This document shows, one piece after another, positions 8,628 through 9,897 of a DNA stretch of 42,723 bases. This DNA is from Defluviicoccus sp. Lineage in GTDB: Bacteria > Pseudomonadota > Alphaproteobacteria > MPNO01. The translations under genes and the position numbers were made by a program. Position 1 is the first letter of the stretch. Each line of letters begins with the position of its first letter. Location: the NCBI GenBank assembly GCA_028820505.1, contig JAPPIT010000105.1, forward strand, positions 1-42,723, written 5' to 3'. Under the pieces are notes generated by a model, which worked only from the letters and a program-made list of their open reading frames with translations, searched no databases and had not been told where the DNA came from.

Positions 8628-9452
8628 ATGCCCAAAGTCCTGACGCAGACCGAGGTCGATCAGTTCTGGAACGAGGGCTACTGCTTTCCCTTCGACTGCA
8701 TGACGACGGAGGAGGCGGCGGAGGCGCGGGCGAAATTCGAGGCCTTCGAGGCCGAGATCGACGACGACATCCACAAGCATTTGCGCGTCAAGGTCCATCT
8801 CGGCTTCATGTGGCTGTGGGAGCTCGCCCACCATCCGAAGATCCTCGATGCCGTCGAGGACCTGATCGGACCCAACATCCTGCTCTATCTGTCGACGCTG
8901 TGGTTCAAGAACGCGGGCGACGGCAAGCAGGTCTCCTGGCACCAGGATTCGGCCTATTACGGGCTCGAGCCGCATGACGTGATCACGCTCTGGCTCGGCT
9001 TCACCGATTCCAACGAGGAAAACGGCTGCGTGCAGATCATCCCCGGCACCCACAAGGAGCCGGACTACGTCCATGTCGAGACCTATGCTGAGGACAACCT
9101 GCTGGCGCGCGGCCAGACCATCGAGGAGATCGACGACTCGAAGGCCGTGAAGCTGGAGCTCAAGGCGGGGCAGTTTTCGCTCCACCACGAGCGGCTGGTG
9201 CACGGCTCGGCGCCGAATAAGTCGAACGACCGCCGGCTCGGCATGTCGTTCACCTACCTGCCGACCTATGTGCGCTGCAACCTGCCCAACCGCACCGCGG
9301 TGCTGTGCCGCGGCGTCGACGAGTACAACTACTGGCAGCGCGACCCCGAGCCGCGCCAGGACCGCGACCCGGTGTGCTGGGAGGCGATCCGCTTCTGGAT
9401 CGACGGCTACGCCGATCCCAACGTCACCCAGGAGGCGCTTGTCACCCGCTGA
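8628..9452 (+). CDS. Phytanoyl-CoA dioxygenase family protein (PhyH 2)
   Basis: 274 residues; same length and same metal-ligand numbering as PhyH 1: His105 and Asp107 in WHQDSAYYG, His192 in LVHGSAPN. Non-haem iron(II)/2-oxoglutarate oxygenase of unknown substrate. It contains the long shared block around ETYAEDNLLARGQT that is nearly the same in PhyH 1 (ETYDKDNLLSRGQT), so the two are recent paralogs or homologs acquired together. GGGGAGG upstream of ATG 8628 is a good ribosome site. It lies downstream of the thiolase on the same strand and overlaps the 3' end of the convergent peroxiredoxin gene by 11 bases. Confidence 0.93.
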   Translation: MPKVLTQTEVDQFWNEGYCFPFDCMTTEEAAEARAKFEAFEAEIDDDIHKHLRVKVHLGFMWLWELAHHPKILDAVEDLIGPNILLYLSTLWFKNAGDGKQVSWHQDSAYYGLEPHDVITLWLGFTDSNEENGCVQIIPGTHKEPDYVHVETYAEDNLLARGQTIEEIDDSKAVKLELKAGQFSLHHERLVHGSAPNKSNDRRLGMSFTYLPTYVRCNLPNRTAVLCRGVDEYNYWQRDPEPRQDRDPVCWEAIRFWIDGYADPNVTQEALVTR

Positions 9453-9897
9453 GCGCGTCGAGGTCGGCCAGCACCCGGTCGGGGTGGTCCGCCGGCTTCA
9501 CCGTCGCGTAGGAACGGGCGACGGTGCCGTCCGGCCCGATCAGGACCGATCTGCGCGGGGTCCTTGCGTCCTCGGCCGTCGCCACGCCGTAGGCGATGCT
9601 CGCCGACTTGTCGAGATCGCTCAGCAGGTCATAGGGAAAACCCTGCTTCTCCTTGAATCTCCCGTTCGCCTCGGTCGAGTCGAAGCTGACCCCGAGGATG
9701 ACCGCGTTCCTGTCGGTAAAGTCCTGGATTCGATCACGGAACCCCTGGCCTTCGATGGTTCAGCCGGGGGTGGAGGCCTTCGGGTACCACCAGAGAAGCA
9801 CGTAGCGACCGGCGAAATCGTCGAGGCTTACCGCGATGCCGTCCTGGTTGGGCATCGAAAACGACGGCGCGGCGGCGCCGGCTTCGATCAGGCTCAT
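9442..9897 (-). CDS. Peroxiredoxin with in-frame TGA at the peroxidatic position (probable selenoprotein)
   Basis: Read through one TGA, this is a full 151-residue AhpC/TSA-type (PrxQ/Bcp-like) peroxiredoxin. The TGA is codon 46 (9760-9762) and falls exactly where the peroxidatic cysteine belongs: PKASTPG-(TGA)-TIEGQGFRD fits the family motif PxxxTxxC. The frame then runs 105 further codons with conserved Prx features (VILGVSFDS, SVLIGPDGTV) to a normal TGA stop. Selenocysteine-containing peroxiredoxins are known in bacteria, so selenocysteine insertion is the simplest reading. There is no cysteine anywhere else in the protein, and the position of a Bcp resolving cysteine (five residues on) is Gln51. 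Alternatives are a nonsense mutation (TGC to TGA) or a sequencing error; conventional translation yields 45 residues. No selA/B/C/D gene is in the window. Confidence 0.8.
9735..9757 (-). promoter_or_regulatory. Candidate SECIS-like hairpin after the TGA codon
   Basis: Counting from the base after UGA, bases +3,+4,+6,+7,+8,+9 can pair with +25,+24,+23,+22,+20,+19, with U5 and C21 bulged and a nine-base loop GGCCAGGGG. A bulged U and G residues at the start of the loop are features of bacterial SECIS elements, but the loop is closer to the UGA than in the E. coli fdhF element. A competing pairing (GAACC with GGUUC, 9739-9761) also exists. Suggestive only. Confidence 0.3.

Follow-up and report, generated by a model that had tools for sequence, protein, structure and literature searches.

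Background and closest described systems

Peroxiredoxins with selenocysteine (Sec) in a TxxU motif (COG1225) were the second commonest family of the Sargasso Sea selenoproteome in 2005, with 43 sequences (PMC1088965), were among the most frequent families in the GOS data of 2008, with 253 sequences (PMC2398784), and are listed as a family in a 2026 review (PMC13188914), through which we also cite the characterised Sec-peroxiredoxin, PrxU of Eubacterium acidaminophilum (Sohling 2001, as cited in PMC13188914). In the Alphaproteobacteria, the one selenoprotein family detected by a survey of 2006 was FdhA (PMC1794560), and in a paper of 2021 FDH is still given as the principal use of Sec (PMC8124441).

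The gene described here lies in the window, by which we mean the whole stretch of 42,723 nucleotides that was analysed. It shares with the marine-metagenome proteins the domain family (COG1225/PF00578), the PxxxTxxU active site, and a SECIS element with G in a small loop; those sequences are largely unassigned reads, whereas the window gene is tied to the genomes of one alphaproteobacterial order. The TxxU peroxiredoxins are an already described family, which the window gene extends; it founds none. What is less usual is a predicted cysteine-free Sec form throughout a little-studied alphaproteobacterial order, cut short by standard gene calling. A literature search found no paper that describes a Sec PrxQ from this order, an absence that is no proof.

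PrxU likewise has Sec at the peroxidatic position but belongs to a different subfamily, since the window protein scores 38.7 bits with the NCBIfam PrxU model (NF040737), under the equivalog cut-off of 270. Among NCBIfam equivalogs, Bcp/PrxQ (PRK09437, thioredoxin-dependent thiol peroxidase) comes nearest, with 110.3 bits, under the cut-off of 140. Members of the latter group (E. coli Bcp and Xanthomonas PrxQ, PDB 5iiz and 3gkm) have their fold and active site in common with the window protein, which differs in having Sec for the peroxidatic Cys, GxG for ACG, and no other Cys. The 1-Cys protein AhpE of M. tuberculosis (1xxu, 4x0x) has the same fold, and recycling by an external thiol is expected of both, but it is only about 25% identical to the window protein and has Cys instead of Sec. 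Finally, 1-Cys PrxQ-like proteins of Nitrospinaceae (L099, L104, and L108-L110) share the TPGCTxEGxGFRDD motif and similarly have no resolving Cys; unlike the window gene, theirs have a Cys codon and no complete hairpin.

Gene, reading frame, and neighbourhood

The features of the locus are as follows.

9442..9897, minus strand: predicted Sec-containing PrxQ/Bcp-type peroxiredoxin gene (ATG at 9897-9895, stop TGA at 9444-9442; 151 residues)
9760..9762, minus strand: predicted Sec codon TGA, codon 46, at the peroxidatic position of PxxxTxxU; kept in the order and in most of the nearest homologues elsewhere
9726..9744, minus strand: putative bacterial SECIS hairpin GGGUUC-CGUGAUC-GAAUCC, from pairing and frozen synonymous codons
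9898..9910, minus strand: purine-rich stretch GGGGAAGGAC directly 5' of the ATG, resembling a ribosome-binding site by inspection only

Translated on the minus strand from 9897 to 9442, the frame reads MSLIEAG...YPKASTPG-U-TIEGQGFRDRIQDF...LSG, with U at residue 46 and a terminal TGA. The Pfam domain AhpC-TSA spans the internal TGA (residues 7-127; 1.7e-30; 106 bits against a gathering score of 26). Translation and domain match bear out the coordinates (9442-9897), the length of 151 codons, and the motif given for this peroxiredoxin in the original prediction, which also held that standard annotation would miss the gene; the mechanical open reading frame call does stop at the internal TGA. Peroxiredoxin calls truncated at UGA across the order would then be mis-annotated selenoenzymes.

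In three genus-mates (G001, G003, and G004) a PhyH-type dioxygenase gene adjoins the Sec-PrxQ gene, and on the other flank there is a match to the alpha/beta hydrolase gene, which consists of DNA similarity at the expected place. These neighbours are shared, and the Sec-PrxQ gene has therefore been inherited in place. Scans of the gap upstream of the gene for promoters and inverted repeats found nothing. The genome to which the window belongs comprises 228 contigs with 3.6% contamination, and the window and the sel genes are on separate contigs.

Conservation of the TGA codon and selection on the downstream frame

Homologues were sought in 97 genomes, 27 of the same order and 70 from other orders of the class. 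The Sec-PrxQ gene was found in 21 of the 27 order genomes, with 63-91% identity in the relatives and with one internal TGA each, always at the same codon. TGA is also present in most of the nearest homologues from other genomes, these wider carriers being mostly metagenome-assembled Rhodospirillales-like Alphaproteobacteria. Cys homologues align with Cys at codon 46, the catalytic position of PxxxTxxC, and homologues with either codon at this position, both of which had been proposed as a check, were thus recovered. Past the TGA, dN/dS within the genus is 0.12-0.19; sister genomes keep the TGA, and the gene shows the lack of decay that had been claimed for it. Because the same codon is TGA in 21 of 27 order genomes, the in-frame TGA is confirmed, at the level of sequence, as neither chance nor sequencing error.

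A pseudogene or a sequencing error, in which a Cys codon was changed to TGA and the remainder is still undecayed, would account for the end of a standard gene call at this codon, and a Cys-type PrxQ paralogue on contig C11 of the same genome would make the loss tolerable. It is nonetheless extremely improbable in the face of an identical TGA in 21 order genomes and beyond, the low dN/dS past it, the conserved hairpin, and the complete Sec machinery.

Two homologues are irregular in other respects. The Sec-PrxQ gene of G017 (L023, G017:C2:692091-692541) shifts frame near residue 120, which reflects either a true frameshift or a misassembly, and L076, on a contig labelled Flavobacteriales bacterium TMED123, is nested among alphaproteobacterial Sec-PrxQ sequences and probably represents a mis-binned contig.

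A putative SECIS hairpin

Bacterial SECIS elements have been described as a stem-loop right after UGA whose small apical loop contains G (PMC1088965), and the Sec-PrxQ hairpin has these features: its apical loop (9738-9732) begins 22 nt past the UGA and has G at its second position. At 9744-9726 it falls inside the interval 9720-9762, where a SECIS element had been suggested for checking. Each of the TGA homologues carries GGRUUC-CGUGAYM-GARUCC, or a close form of it, downstream of this codon. The full set of six pairs forms in each of 49 distinct TGA sequences and in none of 51 Cys homologues, and codon 54 is CGT in every one of those 49 versus 6 of the 51. Codons 53, 54, 55, and 57 are TTC, CGT, GAT, and ATC, respectively, in 19/19 members, whereas other conserved codons vary freely; the mean relative synonymous entropy is 0.23 over codons 52-58 and 0.76 in the 64 others, and a value as low as that of codons 52-58 was reached in 0 of 100,000 random draws. 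Since synonymous codons are frozen under the hairpin, this pattern points to selection on the RNA there as well as on the protein, and not on the protein alone.

None of the six pairs has changed on both sides and three of the six never vary; compensatory changes are absent because the hairpin hardly varies, and the case for it is made by the lack of synonymous variation and by the difference from the Cys homologues. Neither the window as a whole nor the SECIS element gave a match to an Rfam family. In L174, a TGA homologue found later, five of the six pairs are kept, as judged by inspection.

Selenocysteine machinery

The original prediction had stated that the organism would need SelA, SelB, SelD, and tRNA-Sec, and the genome supplies them all. 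Contig C102 carries selA (TIGR00474, 566 bits), selB (468 bits against a cut-off of 242), and a tRNA-Sec with anticodon TCA, and selD is on contig C56 (309 bits against a cut-off of 125), so that the combination of selA, selB, selC (tRNA-Sec, UCA), and selD by which bacterial selenoprotein synthesis is recognised is present in one genome. One further sequence matches the tRNA-Sec family (G000:C36:35714-35803; 49.8 bits against a gathering score of 47) and is most likely another long-arm tRNA. SelB scored over its cut-off in 26 of the 27 order genomes, including all 21 that carry Sec-PrxQ, versus 10 of the 70 genomes from other orders. Among ten Sec-PrxQ carriers outside the 97-genome set, nine have SelB; the exception is the genome of L084, possibly incomplete, in which none was seen. 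L078 and L085, the nearest two homologues with Cys, come from genomes that likewise gave no SelB over the cut-off.

The frame past the TGA is clearly under protein-level selection, as it would also be if the codon were read through or reassigned without Sec, for example, as Trp or by a near-cognate tRNA. We regard this as scarcely credible: TGA is an ordinary stop in this genome and terminates the Sec-PrxQ gene itself, the PhyH, thiolase, and hydrolase frames next to it have no internal TGA, selABCD are present, and homologues have Cys, not Trp, at position 46. The conserved TGA, the hairpin, and the Sec machinery all support the selenocysteine reading originally proposed. Together with the purifying selection and the peroxiredoxin fold, likewise read from sequence, they lead us to consider it very nearly certain that this is a genuine selenoprotein gene, whose UGA would be read as Sec by means of SelB and the hairpin and whose product would be a 1-Sec peroxidase of the PrxQ/Bcp fold.

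Active site and proposed mechanism

An AlphaFold model of Sec-PrxQ (mean pLDDT 97, pTM 0.92) has the peroxiredoxin fold and places residue 46 near the start of a helix spanning residues 44-55; its best PDB matches are Bcp/PrxQ structures, with a TM score of about 0.9 and 33-36% identity. Across the aligned Sec and Cys forms, Pro39, Thr43, Arg115, and the residue at position 46 never vary. The window protein contains no cysteine, and neither do 20 of the 21 order orthologues, two of those 20 being incomplete sequences. The position of the PrxQ resolving Cys, five residues past the peroxidatic one, is Gln51 in the window protein; order members have Asn, Gln, or Lys there. The resolving Cys, at +5 or elsewhere, that characterises 2-Cys Bcp/PrxQ proteins is absent. 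The original prediction mentioned neither this lack of cysteine nor the established status of the Sec-peroxiredoxin family.

We infer that Sec is actually inserted, that the protein is active as a peroxidase, and what kind of reductant serves it. SelA and SelD would make Sec-tRNA-Sec, which, with SelB, would be recruited by the mRNA hairpin just 3' of the UGA, and the ribosome would then read codon 46 as Sec. Set by Pro39, Thr43, and Arg115, Sec would act as the peroxidatic residue: peroxide would oxidise the selenolate to selenenic acid, which would in turn be reduced by an external thiol, either a low-molecular-weight thiol or a redoxin. Because the protein has no resolving cysteine, Sec-PrxQ should act as a 1-Sec peroxiredoxin that needs such an external thiol.

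It is also conceivable, albeit unlikely, that Sec is inserted into a protein that is not mainly a peroxidase but a redox sensor or a thiol/selenol transferase with a protein partner. The lack of any cysteine in the window protein would suit such a role, and order-mates contain a paralogous Sec group without the catalytic Thr for which other roles can be imagined; the invariance of Pro39, Thr43, Arg115, and residue 46, a full peroxidase active site, argues for the 1-Sec peroxidase instead. The window gene provides a natural test case for the question why a peroxidase would retain Sec when the same protein lacks a resolving thiol.

Other selenoproteins in the order

The window's genome also contains an unrelated, SelW-like selenoprotein gene (L163, C36:58913-59110), found in order-mates as well, with the motif EYCVRU (CxxU) and TGA at U. 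This TGA is followed by CCCUC-CGUGC-GAGGG, in which CGUG lies at the same distance past the UGA as its PrxQ counterpart; the energy model predicts the CCCUC-CGUGC-GAGGG hairpin in several relatives and prefers another fold for this piece in the window's genome. A search of that genome with the PrxQ hairpin model matched only the Sec-PrxQ gene, the SelW gene being missed because its hairpin differs outside the loop. Four order genomes (G002, G008, G015, and G018) have SelB without Sec-PrxQ, but all contain the SelW-like gene with TGA, which explains the presence of SelB there.

Sec formate dehydrogenase (Sec-FdhA) was considered as the reason for the Sec machinery and was rejected: in 8 genomes no match exceeded the TIGR01553 cut-off and no match had a stop inside it. 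With Sec-PrxQ, alphaproteobacterial use of Sec would extend beyond formate dehydrogenase, the sole family in the 2006 survey (PMC1794560).

Evolutionary history

Of the 54 Sec rows in a protein tree, 52 fall into one group together with two Cys rows (SH-aLRT 95), and the neighbour of this Sec group is a group containing the 1-Cys PrxQ-like Nitrospinaceae proteins, which also have GxG for ACG. The simplest reading is that the resolving Cys was lost first and that Cys was then replaced by Sec. The nested Cys rows L078 and L085 have modest support, no hairpin, and genomes without SelB over the cut-off, which suggests reversion from Sec to Cys. A single Sec clade was not rejected in a tree test (p-AU 0.49).

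We tentatively propose a wider scenario, which we consider possible but on balance doubtful as a whole. A distinct, cysteine-free 1-Sec PrxQ subfamily would have arisen from 1-Cys PrxQ and would be, with SelW, a main selenoprotein of an order with no sign of Sec-FdhA in the 8 genomes searched; some lineages, having lost SelB, may have gone back to Cys, and a duplicated Sec copy without the catalytic Thr would imply other chemistry.

Nine order genomes and two other loci carry a second Sec-Prx paralogue (L049-L057, L116, and L171; e.g., G009:C2:56518-56961), in which the motif is PRAFGxNU or similar, with Gly replacing the catalytic Thr at the third residue ahead of Sec. A sample of 289 genomes of the class, searched at E 1e-28, yielded no Cys form of it. 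The paralogue retains the same SECIS hairpin. Its copy in G011 (L049, G011:C1:773005-773460) is interrupted by a TAG towards its end and is perhaps decaying.
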